Origin: Candidatus Schekmanbacteria bacterium RIFCSPLOWO2_02_FULL_38_14
Lineage (GTDB): Bacteria; Schekmanbacteria; GWA2-38-11
Assembly: GCA_001790855.1 (NCBI GenBank)
Contig: MGDH01000035.1
Coordinates: forward strand, 297-26,708
Direction of reading: 5' to 3'
Length of the DNA: 26,412 bases
Positions within the stretch are counted from its first letter, which is position 1. Each line of letters begins with the position of its first letter. Under the pieces are notes generated by a model. The model had not been told where the DNA came from, searched no databases, and saw nothing but the letters and a program-made list of their open reading frames with translations. Made by a program: the position numbers and the translations under genes. Positions 1,903 to 17,705 of this stretch are shown piece by piece.

Positions 1903-4590
1903 CTAATGCTTGCCGCAGCAGTTACTTCCTTCGGTATGCTCGTGATGTTCGTGTTCGTCATGGTCATGGTTACCATCACAGCAATCCCCTTCGTGGACGT
2001 GCTCATGCCTGGCACCTTCTTCTTCTTTTTCCCCAAACCTTAGAAGCCTCATTCCATTTGCTATGACAACAAGAGATGTTCCTGTATCTGCAATTACAGC
2101 CATCCAGAGATTGGCTAAGCCTGCGAATGTCATTCCAATAAAAACCGCTTTTACAATCAGGGAAAGAACAATATTACTTTTTATAATTCCAAGAGTCTTC
2201 CTGCTCAGCTGTATAGTATAACTCAGCTTTGACAAATCATCAGCCATAAGTGCGATATCAGCAGTTTCAAGGGCTATATCTGTTCCGGCAACTCCCATTG
2301 AAAATCCAACTGACGCTGTTGCAAGCGCCGGAGCATCATTTACTCCGTCTCCAACCATTCCAACCTTGCCATATCTGCTGATAAGACTTTTGATGACGCT
2401 CACCTTGTCCTGTGGTAGCAGTTCTGCTTCATATTCGTCTACATTCAACTCGCTGGCAATGGCTTTTGCAGTATTTTCATTGTCTCCAGTAAGCATCACT
2501 ATTTTCTTAACTCCAACATTCTTAATTTCTTTCAGGGCATTTTTGCTTATATCCCTTGCTTTATCAGCAAGCGCTATTAATCCCATTACTTTGTCTTTCT
2601 TTGCGACAATTAAAGCAGTTTTTCCCTGAAACTGGAGGTCCTTGATTTTTTCAAGAGAGCCGTTAAGAGGGATGTCAAGCTCTTTTATGAATCTGAGGTT
2701 TCCAATAAAGAAAGTCTCACCTTTTATTTTTGCCTGAGCTCCTTTGCCGGGATGGGAGAGAAACTCATCGGCTTTTTCAATCCTGACAGATATTTTCTTT
2801 GCGTGTTTTACAATTGTTCTTGCAACAGGATGCTCTGACTTTTCCTCTATTGATGCTCCTGCGGAAAGGATTTCATTATTTGAATATCTGTCCAGAGGAA
2901 TTATGTCTGTTACCTCTGCATGTCCCTTTGTGAGTGTTCCGGTTTTATCAAAGGCTATGACAGATAGAGCGCCTGCTTCCTCAAGGAATGCACCGCCTTT
3001 TATCAGGACACCATTTTTTGAAGCAGAGCAGATTGCAGATACAATTGCAACAGGAGTAGAGATGACCAAGGCACAGGGGCATGAAATTACAAGAAGTACC
3101 AGCGCCTTGTAAAACCACGGAGAAAAGGGTTCACCGAGAAAGAGTGGCGGTACAGCCGTTACAGCTATTGCCAGCAAAATTACAAAAGGAGTGTAATATT
3201 TTGCAAATTTATCAACAAATACCTGCGAAGGAGCCTTCTGCGCTTGTGCTTCTTCAACTAAATGGATTATTTTTGAAATAGTGTTGTCCTTGTAAAGCCT
3301 GGTAACTTTTATTTCAAGAGCTCCCCTTTCATTTATGCTTCCTGCATAAACCTCATCTCCGGTATACTTATCAACAGGCATAGATTCGCCTGTAATCGGA
3401 GATTCGTTAACTGATGATTCCCCTCTTATTACAACGCCATCCATTGATATTTTTTCCCCGGGTTTTACAACTATCACGTCATCTACTTTTATCTTTGATA
3501 CAGGCAGCCTGACTAATGAGCCGTTTTGTTTCAGGGATGCTTCTTTTGGAGAAAGGTCAATTAGCGCTTTTATAGCATTTCTTGTTTTGTCCATTGTGTA
3601 GCTCTGGAGGGTATTGCCAAGAGAGAAGAGAAACACTACCATTGCGCCTTCCTCCCATTCCCCTATAGCTGCAGCGCCAACTGCGGCAAGACCCATGAGA
3701 AAATTCATATCAAGAGACAAGGCTTTCAGGGAATAGAACCCGCTGCGTGCCACATAAAAGCCTCCAACAGCAATTGAAAGGGCAAAAAACAGAATACTAA
3801 AAAAACCAAAGAACAAAGATGAGCCGTAGCCCAAAATGATCAGTATTCCTGAGATAAGAGTAAGAAGCCTTCTTTTATCTTTTTTAAGGAATGATGGTTT
3901 GTCCATCAAATCGTCTGCTACAGTTTTAAGTCTTGCCTTGTATCCTGCCTCATCAACAATTTTAATAACTTCATTTATGATATCATCTCTTGCTTCATGG
4001 CGTATAACCATTTCTGCTGAATTAAAATTGACAAGAGTTTCTTTAATCCCTCTGAGTTTGCTGATTCTCCTTTCAAGCTTTGAAGCGCAGTCAGGGCAGT
4101 CCATACCGCTTATCTGGAATATAGACCTATCCTCTCCGATTTCTTCTCCAATATCTTTTATGCTGTATCCGAGATGCTGGATAGTGGTGGAAATTTCTGA
4201 AATGGTTACAACCTCAGACTCAAACTCAACCCACATTTTTCCCGATGCATAGTTAACTGAAACCCAGGCGACTCCCTCAAGGTGCGAGATTGATTTTTCA
4301 AGCTTTGATGCGCAGTCAGGACAGTCAAGCCCTTCAAGCGTCACAGATTCATGTTTATACTGCTTTTCAAGATGTATGCCGATTTCTCTTGTTTTTTCCT
4401 CTATCTTTTCAAGAGAAATAAAATTCGGGTCATATTTTATTTCCATTTTATTGCTGTTTTTCTCAATTGCAAGTTCAACTACACCGCGCAGCGCTGACAG
4501 TTTTTCTCTGAGCCTTTCAATACATAATTCACAGCCGTTGCTCTCAGGCAAGAGAACAGGCAAATCTATAACTTTAATGTTAAGTTTCAT
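1903..4590 (-). CDS. cadA: Zn/Cd/Pb-type P1B ATPase (CadA/ZntA)
   Basis: ATP-driven efflux of soft divalent metals across the inner membrane. The 895 residues show three N-terminal HMA domains: the first with a degenerate GCELC (C20, C23), then LDCPDC (C90, C93) and MDCPDC (C165, C168). Next come TGES (400-403), SCPCAL in the transport helix (CPC 504-506), DKTGT with the phosphorylated D548, HP (587-588), TGDN (701) and GDGVNDAP (747-754). K814 and DTGTS (D835) in the last helices are the pair expected in the P1B-2 Zn/Cd/Pb subgroup. The C-terminal tail (862-895) has ten His and four Cys in two CC pairs. It lies 20 bases after cadC with a GGAG ribosome site, so the two genes form an operon controlled by the upstream operator. 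Confidence 0.95.
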   Translation of the reverse strand: MKLNIKVIDLPVLLPESNGCELCIERLREKLSALRGVVELAIEKNSNKMEIKYDPNFISLEKIEEKTREIGIHLEKQYKHESVTLEGLDCPDCASKLEKSISHLEGVAWVSVNYASGKMWVEFESEVVTISEISTTIQHLGYSIKDIGEEIGEDRSIFQISGMDCPDCASKLERRISKLRGIKETLVNFNSAEMVIRHEARDDIINEVIKIVDEAGYKARLKTVADDLMDKPSFLKKDKRRLLTLISGILIILGYGSSLFFGFFSILFFALSIAVGGFYVARSGFYSLKALSLDMNFLMGLAAVGAAAIGEWEEGAMVVFLFSLGNTLQSYTMDKTRNAIKALIDLSPKEASLKQNGSLVRLPVSKIKVDDVIVVKPGEKISMDGVVIRGESSVNESPITGESMPVDKYTGDEVYAGSINERGALEIKVTRLYKDNTISKIIHLVEEAQAQKAPSQVFVDKFAKYYTPFVILLAIAVTAVPPLFLGEPFSPWFYKALVLLVISCPCALVISTPVAIVSAICSASKNGVLIKGGAFLEEAGALSVIAFDKTGTLTKGHAEVTDIIPLDRYSNNEILSAGASIEEKSEHPVARTIVKHAKKISVRIEKADEFLSHPGKGAQAKIKGETFFIGNLRFIKELDIPLNGSLEKIKDLQFQGKTALIVAKKDKVMGLIALADKARDISKNALKEIKNVGVKKIVMLTGDNENTAKAIASELNVDEYEAELLPQDKVSVIKSLISRYGKVGMVGDGVNDAPALATASVGFSMGVAGTDIALETADIALMADDLSKLSYTIQLSRKTLGIIKSNIVLSLIVKAVFIGMTFAGLANLWMAVIADTGTSLVVIANGMRLLRFGEKEEEGARHEHVHEGDCCDGNHDHDEHEHHEHTEGSNCCGKH

Positions 4591-4610
4591 CAGATTTTCT
4601 CCATAGAAAA

Positions 4611-4973
4611 CTACTTATGCCTGACGTGATCCAAACCTTCTTTAAAAAGCTTTACTATATGTTCATCATCAAGGGAGTAGTAGACTATCCTTCCGTTTTT
4701 TCTCGGCTTAACCAGCCTTAGTGACCTGAGAAACCTTAGCTGGTGTGATATGGCTGATGAGCTTATATTAAGCAGCGTAGATAAATCGCACACACAGAGT
4801 TCGGTTTTTGACAGGACATATAAAATTTTTATACGTGTTGAGTCACCAAGCGCCTTGAAGGTTTCTGCAAGGTCAAGGGTCAAGGAATCTTCAAGCATCT
4901 TCTTTGACAGCTTTTCAACCTTATCCCTGTCAATAATATGAGAACCGCAAAATATGTTTTTCTTTTTGACCAT
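4611..4973 (-). CDS. cadC: ArsR/SmtB-family metal-sensing repressor, CadC-like
   Basis: Winged-helix repressor expected to leave DNA when Cd, Pb or Zn binds. I start it at ATG 4973 (120 residues). The TTG at 4994 of the longer frame lies inside the operator palindrome and would add an unlikely LIYYFF leader. ELCVCD supplies C60 and C62 of the CadC metal site. The N-terminal NIFC gives C9, equivalent to the second N-terminal Cys of CadC, while the first is Lys-Asn here. The second site at the C-terminal helix is also present: D103, H105, H116, with H119 where SmtB/CadC have Glu. SSSAISHQLRFLRSLRLV is the recognition helix and YYSL the wing. First gene of a cadC-cadA operon and probably autoregulated. 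Confidence 0.93.
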   Translation of the reverse strand: MVKKKNIFCGSHIIDRDKVEKLSKKMLEDSLTLDLAETFKALGDSTRIKILYVLSKTELCVCDLSTLLNISSSAISHQLRFLRSLRLVKPRKNGRIVYYSLDDEHIVKLFKEGLDHVRHK

Positions 4974-4982
4974 AAAAAAATA

Positions 4983-5031
4983 ATATATGAGCAATTGTTC
5001 AACTATTCATATATATTATATATTTTGTCAA
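4983..5031 (-). promoter_or_regulatory. cadCA promoter with ArsR/SmtB-type operator
   Basis: TTGACA lies on the minus strand at 5031-5026. Downstream is a 32-base imperfect palindrome (4983-5014) with perfect 8-base outer arms ATATATGA/TCATATAT and 12 of 16 paired positions in all. This resembles the AT-rich 12-2-12 sites of SmtB and CadC. A -10 box is not clean; TATGAA at 5011-5006 gives a 14-base spacer and GAATAG at 5008-5003 a 17-base one. Either way the operator covers the -10 region and the start site, so a bound repressor would block polymerase. Confidence 0.75.
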
Positions 5032-12590: not shown

Positions 12591-13718
12591 ATGAATGCAA
12601 TAATTTGTCTTGAAGACGGAAGGCATTTTGCAGGGAAATCCTTTGGCGCAGAGGGGGAAGCCGTAGGAGAGGTGGTCTTTAATACCAGCATGATGGGATA
12701 TCAGGAGATTCTAACCGACCCCTCCTATCAGGGGCAGATTGTTCTGATGACCTACCCTTTAATAGGGAATTATGGCATAAATTATGAAGATGTTGAATCC
12801 CGCAGAATCTTCCTCTCTGGTTTTATTGTAAAAGAATACTGCTTTTACCCGAGCAATTTCCGCTCTGAAACAAGCCTTGGAGAGTTTTTGAAAAAGGCAG
12901 ATATAGTCGGCATTGAAGGAATAGACACAAGGGCTTTAACAAGGCATATTCGTGACAAGGGAGCGCAGCAGGGAATTATTTCAACACTGGATTTTGATGT
13001 TGAGAGCCTGATAAAAAAAATAAAGAAATCTCCCGGGCTTATAGGGAGGGATTTTGTAAAAGAGGTTACAACAAATTCTCCTTATTCCTGGAATGAAGGA
13101 GGATGGGATCTGGAGAAGGGTTACAGGAAAAATTCCACCAAAAAGCCACAAAGATATAAAGTAGTAGCCTATGATTTTGGCATAAAGCATAATATACTGC
13201 GGATGCTTGTTGATTCAGGCTGTGATGTTGAGGTTGTTCCTGCAAATACAAGAGCAGAGGATGTGCTTGCAAGAAATCCTGACGGAGTTTTCCTGTCAAA
13301 CGGACCCGGAGACCCTGAGGCGGTTTCTTATGCGATAAACAGTACAAAAAGGCTTTTAGGTAAAAAACCGATTTTCGGAATCTGCCTGGGGCACCAAATT
13401 CTGGGGCTTGCCCTTGGCGGAAAGACTTATAAACTTAAATTTGGCCACCACGGAGCAAACCACCCTGTAAAGGAACTCTCATCAGGAAGGATTGAGATAA
13501 CAGCGCAGAACCACGGCTTTGCAGTTGATGTTGATTCAATTTCTGATGCATATCTTACCCACGTCAATTTAAATGACCAGACTGTGGAGGGAATGGCTCA
13601 TAAAAACCTGCCAGTGTTTTCTGTCCAGTACCATCCGGAAGCCTCGCCAGGACCACACGACTCAAGGTATCTTTTTAAAAGGTTTGTTGATTTGATGGAG
13701 AAATACAGAAATTCTTAG
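12591..13718 (+). CDS. carA: Carbamoyl-phosphate synthase small (glutaminase) subunit
   Basis: Hydrolyses glutamine and feeds ammonia to CarB for carbamoyl phosphate, used in pyrimidine and arginine synthesis. 375 residues, full length. The N-terminal CPSase domain shows [20 protein letters not shown] and [15 protein letters not shown]. The class-I amidotransferase domain has FLSNGPGDP (235-243), the nucleophile C265 in GICLGHQ, and H348/E350 in [13 protein letters not shown]. carB is not in the window, so the two subunits are unlinked here. The 3' end overlaps the convergent terC by 4 bases. ATG 12591 gives the normal family start, without a Shine-Dalgarno. Confidence 0.97.
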
Positions 13719-14713
13719 CCATCTTTCTTTGATTCCTGCTTTGATGTGTGGGTTGACTCTGTTTCCTCATCTGAAGGATTGGTTGGTGTTGGAACAAATT
13801 CTGCCTTGAATGGTCTAACAATAGAGGAGATTATGGAAATAAGAAGAATGCTTGCAATCACACCTAAAGCAATCTCAATCGGAATTTTATAGATGTTGGC
13901 AAGAAGCATTTTTACTCCTATAAAGACGAGAATGGCAGAAAGACCATAATGGAGATAGTGAAACAATCGCATAATCCCAGCAAGCGCAAAGTAGAGTGCC
14001 CTTAGTCCTAAAATAGCAAATACATTTGAGGTGTATACAATAAAGGGGTCTACTGTGATGGCAAGGATGGCAGGAATCGAGTCTATGGCAAAGATAACAT
14101 CTGTCGTTTCAACAACCAACAGCACAATGAATAATGGCGTGGCAAAGTACTTTCCCGCTTTCTTAACAAAAAACTTATCTTCTTCATACCTGTCAGTAAC
14201 AGGCATAAATTTTTTGAAGAGCCTTAATACTGGATTTCGTTCCGGATGGATTTCTTTATCTTTCTGCAAAGCCATTTTGATTCCGGTCAGAACCAAAAAG
14301 CCTCCAAAAATATAGATAATCCAGTGAAACTTCTGGATCAGTGTTATACCTATGGCAATGAAAATCGCCCGCATCACCAGCGCACCAAGAATACCCCAAA
14401 AAAGAACCTTGTGACTATATTGAGAAGGCACACGAAAATAGGAAAATATCAGTAAAAAAATAAAGATATTGTCCACGCTGAGAGAATACTCAATTAAATA
14501 ACCGGTCAGAAATTCAAGCGCCTTCTCCGAACCTCTCCAGAAGTAAATTCCCATATTGAAGAGAAGCGCCAAAGTAATCCAGACCGTACACCACGCAAGT
14601 GCCTCTTTGAGCTTGATCTCATGAGCCTTGCGATGGAAAACTCCAAGGTCTATGACAAGCATTGCAAGTACTAAAATGTTAAATATAATCAACAACAGAA
14701 CTTGATTTGGCAT
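13715..14713 (-). CDS. TerC/Alx-family integral membrane protein
   Basis: 332 residues with about nine membrane segments. The paired acidic signatures of the TerC family are EYSLSVDN (75-82) and [11 protein letters not shown] (202-212), and a hydrophilic C-terminal tail follows from about 300. Alx and related TerC proteins have been linked to manganese efflux and are classic members of yybP-ykoY (manganese riboswitch) regulons. This fits the riboswitch-like leader found 2.8 kb upstream at the head of the same gene string. AAGGAAA lies 5 bases before the ATG. It is the last gene of the operon and convergent with carA. A tellurite-resistance role is possible by name only. Confidence 0.9.
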
Positions 14714-14792: not shown

Positions 14793-15155
14793 TTACTTCT
14801 TAAACACACTAAAAAGCTTATCCATAACTGTCTTTTCAAGTTTTGATACAGCCTCAAGTTCTCCGGCATCAAGCCATATGCCTTCACATTCTGAACATTT
14901 ATCCACTTTTATTCCTTTATAATCAATCTCTATTAACTTCATCCCACATTTAGGACACTGCATAAAATGGAGTTTTTTTAATCGTTTTTTTTCTTTATCT
15001 ATCTCATTTTCAACTGAAAGATTTGTTAGAAGCAGTGGGTTTTGAAGCGCTTCTTCAGCTAACTTTTTTACCTTTTCATCTTCAATTGTTTTTCTTCTTT
15101 CATACTCCATTCTTGCAAAATATTCTTCTTCTTTTTCACTCGGTTTTACTGGCAT
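14793..15155 (-). CDS. Small TFIIB-type zinc-ribbon protein
   Basis: 120 residues. A charged helical N-terminal half (about 5-62) is followed by a zinc ribbon with CPKC (C67, C70), CSEC (C87, C90) and GIWLDAGELE, the signature of the bacterial zf-TFIIB domain. Function of the family is not established. Its first 20 bases overlap the end of the PGPGW gene, with AAGGAGG nine bases before the ATG, so the two are translationally linked. Confidence 0.85.
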   Translation of the reverse strand: MPVKPSEKEEEYFARMEYERRKTIEDEKVKKLAEEALQNPLLLTNLSVENEIDKEKKRLKKLHFMQCPKCGMKLIEIDYKGIKVDKCSECEGIWLDAGELEAVSKLEKTVMDKLFSVFKK

Positions 15156-15399
15156 GATTATTCCCTCCTTTGTTACTTACTTTATCTTTTATGTTATTTA
15201 CTTTATCTTTTACTTTTTCCAAAACTCTTCTTGCCCAGACAAACTCTGTAGCAAGGATTCCGAGGCCAAGAGGTATTACAATGAATGCAGGTCCGGGCAG
15301 TACAATCATTGTAAGTCCAATAAGGAGTACTGTAAAACCAATTACAGCTATAATAAGTTTTTTTGCCTGTTTAATAGTTTTAAGTATAAATACTGTCAT
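15136..15399 (-). CDS. Small PGPGW-family transmembrane protein
   Basis: 87 residues with two hydrophobic segments (about 15-34 and 37-52) around the PGPAFIVIPLGLGILATEF motif, which corresponds to the PGPGW family core, then a basic C-terminal tail. Family function unknown. The ATG is 2 bases after the stop of a 15-codon mini-ORF and has no good ribosome site of its own, so it may depend on translation of that mini-ORF. Confidence 0.8.
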   Translation of the reverse strand: MTVFILKTIKQAKKLIIAVIGFTVLLIGLTMIVLPGPAFIVIPLGLGILATEFVWARRVLEKVKDKVNNIKDKVSNKGGNNHASKTE

Positions 15400-15401
15400 A
15401 G

Positions 15402-15449
15402 CTATCTATCAAAAATATCGAATATCTTTTTAAATGTAGAGTCCTCCAC
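15402..15449 (-). CDS. Mini-ORF of 15 codons ahead of the PGPGW gene
   Basis: GTG at 15449 encodes MEDSTFKKIFDIFDR and stops 2 bases before the next ATG. A perfect AGGAGG (15464-15459) lies nine bases upstream, while the following gene lacks one. Best explanation: a short peptide that couples translation to the PGPGW gene, or a small protein in its own right. Lies between the carbonic anhydrase stop and PGPGW. Confidence 0.45.
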   Translation of the reverse strand: MEDSTFKKIFDIFDR

Positions 15450-15485
15450 AATTTACTTCCTCCTTATTCTTTTCAGGTTCTCCAT

Positions 15486-16109
15486 TTAAGAGGTTTTTTT
15501 AAAAACATTTGTGACTGGGTTGTAGGCATATATGTTTCCTGTTTTAATCTCATAATACCATCCATGCAAATGAAGAGTTCCCTCTTTTAATAATTGATCT
15601 ACAAAAGGATATGTCTGAATATTTTTTATCTGGAAAAGAACATTTTCTTCTTCTGTAATTCTAAGACGGGATTTTGTGGATGAAGCAGAGTAAAAGGTAT
15701 TAACTGCATTAATTACAGGCTTAGCTATTTTCAACCAATCCTTCAGATGTGGCATATTGTTGAATTCCCTTTTATCTTTATAAAGTGCCTGCATTGCCCC
15801 ACAGTTGGAATGTCCACACACGATAATATCAGTTACCTTTAAATCCAACACTGCAAACTCTATCGCTGCTGCAACACTGTTTTTGTCTTTTATAGCATCA
15901 TATGGAGGGATGATATTCCCAACATTTCTTACAATAAAAAGTTCCCCTGGCTTACTCTGGGTAACAAGATTTGGGTCTATTCTTGAATCAGCGCATGTTA
16001 TAAAAAGAACTTCCGGTGTCTGACCTTTAGAGAGCCTGTTGAAGAAGTTCTCTTCTTTCTTAAAGTATGATTCCTGAAATTTATGAATTCCCTGATAAAG
16101 TTTTTTCAT
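15486..16109 (-). CDS. Beta-class carbonic anhydrase
   Basis: Interconverts CO2 and bicarbonate in the cytoplasm. 207 residues with the beta-class zinc site: C39 in ITCADSRIDP (with D41 and R43, the regulatory dyad), and H100 and C103 in VCGHSNCGAM. The PGELFIVRNVGNIIPP and IEFAVLDL motifs and the C-terminal LHGWYYEIKTGNIYAYN are also typical. A GGA lies 7 bases before the ATG. It sits second in the operon behind an MFS gene, 51 bases away. Its placement in a probably manganese-controlled operon is unusual. Confidence 0.95.
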   Translation of the reverse strand: MKKLYQGIHKFQESYFKKEENFFNRLSKGQTPEVLFITCADSRIDPNLVTQSKPGELFIVRNVGNIIPPYDAIKDKNSVAAAIEFAVLDLKVTDIIVCGHSNCGAMQALYKDKREFNNMPHLKDWLKIAKPVINAVNTFYSASSTKSRLRITEEENVLFQIKNIQTYPFVDQLLKEGTLHLHGWYYEIKTGNIYAYNPVTNVFKKTS

Positions 16110-16160: not shown

Positions 16161-17474
16161 TTAGTGAAACTTCTTCTGGTTATATATTTCTTCTTCAGCA
16201 TGTGCTTTTTTCCAGGTCATCAGAATAAAAACAACAACAAGCAAATCAGCAATTCCGGTAAGCACAAACGGCATTGAGTGAGCAACAAGGTCAAAGAGAA
16301 ATCCCCCTGCCTGCAAGAAAAACATTATACCTATGGCGGCAGAAGTGTGATATCCTCCAAGGACTGAACCTATAATATTTCTGGGAGCTATGTTAGAAGT
16401 GAGAGTAGATGAACCAACACCTACGCCATTGACTCCAAGTGCAAAAATAAATACACATACTTTCATCCAGATTGAAAAAGGGTTTGTTATAAAAACCATT
16501 AGGGTAAGTCCTGACCCTGCTAAAAATAGTCCCAAAGCGAGAATTTTAAGCTTCCCCCAGTTCTCAACAAGATAACCCCATATAGGATAACAGAGCAGCC
16601 CTATTACGCTTGCCATGGCAACAATAATTCCTGCTTCACCCATTGCCTGCATTGGAGTACGGCCAAACTCTTTTGCAACTTTGATAGCCCACACCATTGT
16701 GAACATTCCGAATATTACAACATCAGCACGTGATGCAAAAGCTGTTGCAAAAGTTATCTTCAAGCAGGGGCTTTCCTTCAACATTCTGAAAACCTCTTTC
16801 CAATTTACTTTTTCTTTTTTCTTCTTGTCTACAAGCTCAACGAGACCTGCCCTTGAGATAACTGAAGCTACTATTGCTATTAGCATTGAGAGTAAAAAAG
16901 TATTATAGAGTCCGATTATCTTAGGGAGCCGAGCAATAAATGAAAAGCAGAATAGAGAGCCTGCTGTAAACATAAAACCCATTATAGCCATTGCTTTTCC
17001 ACGCCCGGCAATAAAAGTATAATCAGTAAATAAGGACTGTATCTGAGGCCAGACGAGAAGCATAGAAAAACCTATAAAAAACCGGAATACATAGACAAGT
17101 AAAAGTGGTTTATTAACTCCTATAAAGTCTGCAATTATGTGAGATGAACCAAAACATAGAAGAGATATTCCGGTAAGAATAAAGCCAGTAACGAGTAAAC
17201 CTCTTCTGCCTATCTTGTCAGATAGTATTCCTATGCCACCGACTAAGAATATAATTGTAATCTCTACAAGCACAGAAAGTGAAGCATTGATTTTTCCTAT
17301 ATGCTGTCTGTCTATTCCTATAACTTCCTGTAGAAAAAGGGGTTGAAGTACTACGGGAAGTATATTCATTGTCATACAAAAAAATGATATAAAAGAGAGG
17401 GTAATAAAATTTAGACGGGCAACTCCTTCACGCAAATTTATTCCTAAAAATGTTGCTCCTTTTGTAGATTCCAT
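16161..17474 (-). CDS. Major facilitator superfamily transporter
   Basis: 437 residues, predicted 12 membrane helices with the cytoplasmic loop between halves at about 215-235 (VDKKKKEKVNWKEV). Motif A is GGIGILSDKIGRRG (79-92) after helix 2, and a related loop in the second half is GYLVENWGKLK. Substrate not predictable by sequence; I do not recognise the subfamily. AAGGAGGT lies 5 bases before the ATG. It is the first gene after the leader with the yybP-ykoY-like aptamer and terminator, so manganese or a manganese-linked solute is a reasonable but untested guess. Confidence 0.88.
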   Translation of the reverse strand: MESTKGATFLGINLREGVARLNFITLSFISFFCMTMNILPVVLQPLFLQEVIGIDRQHIGKINASLSVLVEITIIFLVGGIGILSDKIGRRGLLVTGFILTGISLLCFGSSHIIADFIGVNKPLLLVYVFRFFIGFSMLLVWPQIQSLFTDYTFIAGRGKAMAIMGFMFTAGSLFCFSFIARLPKIIGLYNTFLLSMLIAIVASVISRAGLVELVDKKKKEKVNWKEVFRMLKESPCLKITFATAFASRADVVIFGMFTMVWAIKVAKEFGRTPMQAMGEAGIIVAMASVIGLLCYPIWGYLVENWGKLKILALGLFLAGSGLTLMVFITNPFSIWMKVCVFIFALGVNGVGVGSSTLTSNIAPRNIIGSVLGGYHTSAAIGIMFFLQAGGFLFDLVAHSMPFVLTGIADLLVVVFILMTWKKAHAEEEIYNQKKFH

Positions 17475-17523: not shown

Positions 17524-17563
17524 AAAAAAAAGACCTTTACCTGTCTTCAACAGGTAAAGGTCT
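17524..17563 (-). terminator. Intrinsic terminator of the leader RNA (expression platform)
   Basis: A perfect 14-base stem, AGACCTTTACCTGT (17563-17550) with ACAGGTAAAGGTCT (17544-17531), has a 5-base loop and runs straight into eight U. It lies 50 bases before the MFS start codon. Its 5' arm includes the CCTTTAC that would pair with the aptamer's 5' end, so the two folds exclude each other. Confidence 0.92.
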
Positions 17564-17668
17564 CGTATGTTCCAGTAGAACCGTGGGAACCGGACCAGCC
17601 TTTCGGCTGATCGTGTTGACGACTCTCCACACCTGCTTTCAGCAGATTACTACTCCCCCTTACATATT
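17553..17668 (-). ncRNA. yybP-ykoY-type manganese riboswitch aptamer
   Basis: Read on the minus strand, the leader has the conserved AAGGGGGAGTAG near its 5' end (17661-17650), then a CTGC/GCAG hairpin, GTCGTCAACA, an 8-base stem GATCAGCC-GAAA-GGCTGGTC, a GTTCC/GGAAC stem, and TACGAGACCTTTAC at the 3' end. The GGGGAGTAG and GAGACCTTT blocks are the sequence hallmarks I know for this class, in which Mn2+ docks two loops. The closing helix GTAAGG (17663-17658) with CCTTTAC (17560-17554, one bulge) would take away the terminator's 5' arm. Bound metal would therefore prevent termination, an ON switch. The operon it heads ends in a TerC protein, a known partner of this riboswitch. Confidence 0.85.
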
Positions 17669-17674
17669 GTTTTT

Positions 17675-17705
17675 ATTGTAAACACCCCATCATTTATATT
17701 GTCAA
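17675..17705 (-). promoter_or_regulatory. Promoter of the riboswitch operon
   Basis: TTGACA (17705-17700) and TACAAT (17680-17675) with a 19-base spacer, longer than ideal. Transcription would begin at about 17668, just ahead of the aptamer's first helix, which supports the assignment. Confidence 0.6.

Follow-up and report, generated by a model that had tools for sequence, protein, structure and literature searches.

The analysed stretch of 26,412 nucleotides from a Candidatus Schekmanbacteria genome (hereafter, the window) contains five genes on the minus strand downstream of a structured leader. From the leader outward, the genes are the following:

16161..17474, minus strand: MFS transporter, 437 aa, with the ribosome-binding site AAGGAGG (Pfam MFS_1, E 3.5e-32)
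15486..16109, minus strand: beta-carbonic anhydrase, 207 aa (Pfam Pro_CA, E 5.5e-51)
15136..15399, minus strand: PGPGW small membrane protein, 87 aa (Pfam PF09656, E 1e-20)
14793..15155, minus strand: Zn-ribbon (TFIIB-type) protein, 120 aa (Pfam PF13453, E 2e-15)
13715..14713, minus strand: TerC/Alx family membrane protein, 332 aa, the last gene (TIGR03718 R_switched_Alx, 433 bits against a cut-off of 246)

The genes are separated by gaps of 51, 86, -20 and 79 nt, a scan between them revealed no terminator-like site, and they are probably read as a single operon transcript. The order put forward in the original prediction, with the MFS gene first and TerC, the known target family, fifth and last, agrees with the Pfam and NCBIfam assignments. 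The gap between the carbonic anhydrase and PGPGW genes (15400-15485) includes a minus-strand ORF of 15 codons that starts with GTG, has the ribosome-binding site AAGGAGG and ends 2 nt before the PGPGW start; translational coupling is possible. Elsewhere in the window, the translation of positions 1903-4994 reads as a P-type ATPase for heavy metals, bearing metal-binding repeats at its N terminus and a His-rich tail; it is preceded by an ArsR-type regulator, likewise read from its translation, and the two form a separate metal resistance unit. The mntP gene of the source genome is split by a contig break (L186, G000:C38:93500-95132, and G000:C32:10-273), and its 1.3-kb upstream region contains no Mn riboswitch.

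The leader comprises the following elements, of which the aptamer and the overlapping terminator can, like the gene order, be read from the sequence itself:

17675..17705, minus strand: probable sigma-70 promoter (TTGACA 17705-17700, 19-nt spacer, TACAAT 17680-17675)
17553..17663, minus strand: predicted Mn2+ (yybP-ykoY) riboswitch aptamer (covariance model R1; pair counts with relatives)
17657..17663, minus strand: 5' strand of the P1.1 switch helix, GUAAGGG (seven standard pairs with 17560-17554)
17554..17560, minus strand: 3' strand of the P1.1 switch helix, CCUUUAC, common to the terminator 5' arm
17524..17564, minus strand: intrinsic terminator (16-bp stem 17564-17530, 3-nt loop, run of U)

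The promoter was recognized by consensus only, and its 19-nt spacer exceeds the scanned range of 16-18 nt; given a perfect -35 box (TTGACA) from 17705 and TACAAT, the RNA is expected to start a few bases upstream of P1.1. Of the region 17524-17705 originally assigned to the riboswitch, the aptamer (17663-17553) and the terminator stand, while the upper part is probably promoter and not RNA.

On the minus strand the leader reads GUAAGGGGGAGUAGUAAUCUGCUGAAAGCAGGUGUGGAGAGUCGUCAACACGAUCAGCCGAAAGGCUGGUCCGGUUCCCACGGUUCUACUGGAACAUACGAGACCUUUACCUGUUGAAGACAGGUAAAGGUCUUUUUUUU. The three blocks singled out in the original prediction are present in the proposed order: GGGGGAGTAG from 17659, GTCGTCAA from 17623 and GAGACCTTT from 17564. 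The aptamer elements follow each other as P1.1, loop L1 (GGAGUA), P1.2 (GUA/UAC), P2, P3.1, loop L3 (UCGUCAACAC), P3.2, CGG and P4. The P1.1 helix GUAAGGG/CCUUUAC consists of seven pairs, one of them G-U; P2 has seven pairs, P3.1 has seven pairs and one bulged A, P3.2 has eight pairs, and P4, which comes after CGG, is GUUCU/GGAAC. Both metal-site loops, L1 (GGGAGUAG) and L3 (UCGUCAA), are present in the four-way junction. Alignment with the Lactococcus sequence shows that the leader keeps the L3 adenosine responsible for Mn2+ sensing in L. lactis (A41) and X. oryzae (A48).

The terminator hairpin was predicted to be mutually exclusive with the aptamer, and it is indeed a strong candidate, with 16 pairs, a 3-nt loop, a run of U and a fold z-score of -7.1. 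The CCTTTAC sequence that closes the aptamer doubles as part of the terminator 5' arm, as had been proposed, since the 3' strand of P1.1 (17560-17554) lies within that arm (17564-17549). Formation of P1.1 reduces the terminator to a 5-bp remnant. Folding without ligand gives -58.4 kcal/mol for the terminator versus -49.7 kcal/mol with P1.1 forced, a gap of about 9 kcal/mol; this preference is expected for an ON switch and has no bearing on Mn2+. P1.1 and terminator overlap in this way at 83 of 115 other riboswitch loci among the matches listed.

Riboswitches of the yybP-ykoY class are known to bind Mn2+ and to act by antitermination. To assign the leader to this class we relied on a sequence pattern and a covariance model. 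The pattern GGGAGTAG-N18-48-GTCGTCAA has one match in the window and none in 100 shuffles; in the 2.68-Mb genome it also matches once, and the reversed control pattern does not match. The covariance model R1 was trained on 22 riboswitches gathered from GTDB genomes by an exact-pattern search, the window not being among them; its training structure has a covariation of 0.542 against 0.222 in shuffled alignments and at most 0.14 when slid. R1 matches positions 17663-17553 of the minus strand over its full length (51.7 bits, E 1.5e-11), in support of the proposed class and strand. The training set was gathered with blocks that the window also carries, so part of the 51.7 bits reflects these blocks and the structural part was judged separately by covariation. 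The window holds the only strong R1 match in the genome, the next best scoring 18.6 bits; among 36 matches compared, its score is in the lower part of the range. Features common to 37 aligned riboswitches are all present in the window, namely the blocks of L1 and L3, the CGG and an A preceding GACCUUU; L1 and L3 had belonged to the pattern by which the 37 were collected.

The original prediction had named a missing RF00080 hit, together with a lack of Mn2+-dependent change in termination, as grounds for refutation, and the Rfam model RF00080 indeed has no match in the window, either at its gathering score (45 bits) or at E<=10, the same copy of the model underscoring canonical members as well. 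At relaxed thresholds it gives 39 bits for Bacillus velezensis and 37.6 bits for Lactococcus, both under the cut-off of 45, and misses the Nitrospirota riboswitch L060 altogether; at the gathering score it matches none of ten pattern-bearing loci (Bacillus, Lactococcus and others). The silence of RF00080 thus refutes nothing, because Bacillus and Lactococcus members of the known type also fall below the cut-off. The RF00080 model of this Rfam copy, which has 177 positions, scores the canonical Mn riboswitches of L066:3922-4023, L068:1035-1130 and L060 under its own cut-off. The other Rfam matches of the window at E<=10 are weak (SSRC10, 23 bits; PyrR, 20.5 bits). The SSRC10 family (RF02617), a streptococcal 'sRNA', aligns to positions 17525-17654 of the minus strand along GGGAGUAG, CGUCAA, GAGACCU and the terminator; it may be a mis-filed streptococcal Mn riboswitch.

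The structure is conserved in related leaders. In 11 close leaders the covariation of the aptamer is 0.286 versus 0.168 after shuffling and at most 0.11 when slid, and 16 pairs have changed on both sides (shuffled mean 10.3). In these leaders 84% of the aptamer helix cells are paired, which is probably a low-side figure, as the ends of P3.1 and P4 were drawn by hand and match the window but are offset in the relatives. P1.1 is paired in 100% of cases. The terminator retains 92% of its pairs, with compensatory changes as for the aptamer.

Taken together, the leader is very probably a transcriptional Mn2+ riboswitch of the yybP-ykoY class that works as an ON switch. The ON-switch logic of the original prediction finds its parallel in L. 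lactis, where Mn2+ binding stabilizes P1.1 and blocks the terminator (PMC11087558); overlap of P1.1 and terminator is likewise the studied mechanism in X. oryzae (PMC6754395). The yoaB leader of L. lactis resembles that of the window in its four-way junction, L1 (GGGGAGUAG), L3 (UCGUCAA) and CGG, in the identity of the P1.1 3' strand with the terminator 5' arm, and in being a transcriptional ON switch. By analogy, at low Mn2+ the nascent CCUUUAC would be drawn into the 16-bp terminator and the polymerase would halt before the MFS gene. At high Mn2+, L1 and L3 would be locked together, stabilizing P1.1 and withholding its 3' strand from the terminator; with only the 5-bp remnant hairpin left, transcription would read through into the MFS, carbonic anhydrase, PGPGW, Zn-ribbon and TerC genes. 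The most likely output would be TerC relieving Mn excess, by export and by metal loading of exported proteins. A second transporter, perhaps also metal-related, could be provided by the MFS protein, and bicarbonate or pH could be adjusted by the carbonic anhydrase. As in E. coli alx and B. subtilis meeY (ykoY), an Mn riboswitch is combined here with a TerC-family gene; there, however, TerC is right behind the riboswitch, whereas in the window it is the fifth gene.

The targets of other Mn riboswitches were collected from a GTDB pattern scan, the matches listed being mostly from Firmicutes and Proteobacteria, and from 690 further genomes of two phyla. Among the matches listed, the ORF nearest to 98 other Mn riboswitches encodes TerC in 65 cases, a P-type ATPase in nine, HtpX (Peptidase_M48) in three, and GDT1 and a Na/Ca exchanger in two each; the ORFs were called mechanically, and a few of the remainder are perhaps not the true first gene. 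In this comparison an MFS gene is nearest only in the window, consistent with the earlier view of it as an uncommon first gene. In Lactococcus loci L068 and L099, the first gene is a large ORF of about 890 aa, the size of a P-type ATPase, in contrast to the MFS gene of the window. Neither the MFS protein nor the carbonic anhydrase has a relative in about 115 other riboswitch loci among the matches listed, and the few true riboswitch matches in the 690 further genomes are also without such relatives. A protein scan of genome contigs with the MFS protein as query returned no relatives, so the rarity of MFS genes behind the riboswitch rests on the pattern scan and the 690 genomes.

Three of the five window genes (PGPGW, Zn-ribbon and TerC) belong to the set found behind near-identical leaders. 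The PGPGW protein is 65-67% identical over 54 aa to products of riboswitch operons L033 and L067, and the Zn-ribbon protein is 62-67.5% identical to those of L033, L059 and L175. The closest leaders among the matches listed (L033, L059, L060, L067 and L080) were found in Nitrospirota and deltaproteobacterial MAGs. The operons they head contain HtpX, Zn-ribbon, P-type ATPase, PGPGW, SPFH-like, UPF0182 and TerC genes; Pfam supplied the names HtpX, P-type ATPase, UPF0182 and TerC, and SPFH was recognized by eye in the translated sequence. The leaders of L033, L059/L179, L067, L174 and L178, all from Nitrospirota or deltaproteobacterial MAGs, are nearly identical to that of the window (GUAGUAACC...GGUGUGAGGAGUCGUCAA...GAACAUACGAGACCUUUACC), with the same terminator, and their operons share PGPGW, Zn-ribbon or TerC with it; they differ in starting with HtpX, P-type ATPase or UPF0182 genes and in having no relative of the MFS or carbonic anhydrase gene.

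A recurrent set of genes lies downstream of near-identical Mn riboswitches in L033, L059, L067, L173, L174, L175 and L180: HtpX, Zn-ribbon, UPF0182, P-type ATPase, PGPGW and SPFH (HflC/flotillin-like). Locus L175 has two Mn riboswitches (923-1035 and 3473-3568), separated by 2.5 kb within a single gene cluster; HtpX follows one of them, and UPF0182-like and P-type ATPase genes follow the other. The TerC proteins of B. subtilis co-purify with HtpX, FtsH and flotillin (PMC10246235). Because of this co-purification with HtpX and flotillin, the recurrent operons, found across unrelated phyla, provide independent genomic support for an Mn-linked membrane-protein quality-control module.

The MFS protein passes the NCBIfam MamH model (NF040986) marginally, by 2.7 bits (302.7 bits against a cut-off of 300), which places it in the subfamily that includes the magnetosome transporter MamH. 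Its orthologue L003 scores 298.7 bits, and four paralogues in the source genome score 244-281 bits. Specific orthology to MamH was rejected, as 24 matches of 220-308 bits occur across four genomes of the order. Unlike MamH and MamZ, the protein belongs to a broad native family of paralogues that score similarly, and it has no magnetosome neighbours, the adjacent genes being those for carbonic anhydrase, PGPGW, Zn-ribbon and TerC. A search of the genome for magnetochrome domains gave no match, and neither did its controls.

In the tree, the MFS protein groups with one gene of genome G003 (67% identical) and two genes of G002, and these orthologues have no riboswitch upstream. The leader, the Zn-ribbon gene and TerC were not found in the three other genomes compared. 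Given the 67% identical orthologue without a leader, the MFS gene is native to the phylum; the lack of these three elements in the other genomes suggests, as the simplest account, that a horizontally acquired riboswitch cassette was joined to this resident gene. Loss in the other genomes may be the alternative, the comparison covering four genomes, one of them 70% complete.

With almost even chances, a rearrangement placed the MFS and carbonic anhydrase genes there as passengers that are co-transcribed and have no role in manganese, the real targets being TerC, Zn-ribbon and PGPGW; this is compatible with the riboswitch. In its favour, MFS orthologues occur without the leader in two other genera, whose genomes also lack the Zn-ribbon gene and TerC, and no relative of the MFS or the carbonic anhydrase gene is present in other riboswitch loci among the matches listed. 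Still, no gene lies nearer to the riboswitch than the MFS gene, the first of the operon, which has kept a strong ribosome-binding site, and passengers located between riboswitch and target are prone to loss; the arrangement was, however, seen in one genome. It is a fair hypothesis that the Mn regulon may extend to the MFS and carbonic anhydrase genes. More tentatively, and with rather low probability, the MFS protein represents a novel type of metal transporter induced by Mn2+, MamH-like and probably an exporter, encoded by a resident gene under an imported riboswitch.

It is improbable that the aptamer, though of this RNA class, has another divalent ion or alkaline pH as its main signal, with pH/bicarbonate balance as the purpose of the operon. 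A carbonic anhydrase is unusual in an Mn-riboswitch operon, and E. coli alx is activated at high pH, which mobilizes intracellular Mn (PMC12096827), but even the alx RNA senses Mn2+, the L3 and L1 residues of the window are those of the Mn2+-sensing class, and TerC is tied to Mn export (PMC10246235, PMC12096827). Least probable of all is a degenerate aptamer, a former riboswitch that now acts as an intrinsic terminator with constant partial termination: despite the bulged A in P3.1, the modest R1 score relative to relatives and the missing RF00080 match (from a model that also underscores canonical members), the helices and the two metal-site loops are all intact, and constant attenuation would not maintain the compensatory differences from relatives.

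Judged by its sequence and structure, the window leader is an Mn2+ riboswitch of a known class with a classical antitermination platform, and ordinary as a riboswitch; the class is well known, and the targets are mildly surprising. The new element is the target list, in which an MFS transporter and a carbonic anhydrase, both probably under Mn control, stand beside recurring small membrane and Zn-ribbon genes. Since the RF00080 model used misses true members of the class, surveys of Mn riboswitches based on Rfam may underestimate their number. If the reading of the MFS protein as an Mn2+-induced metal transporter is true, its regulation would point to a divalent metal for the MamH-like family, and carbonic anhydrase would join the Mn response.
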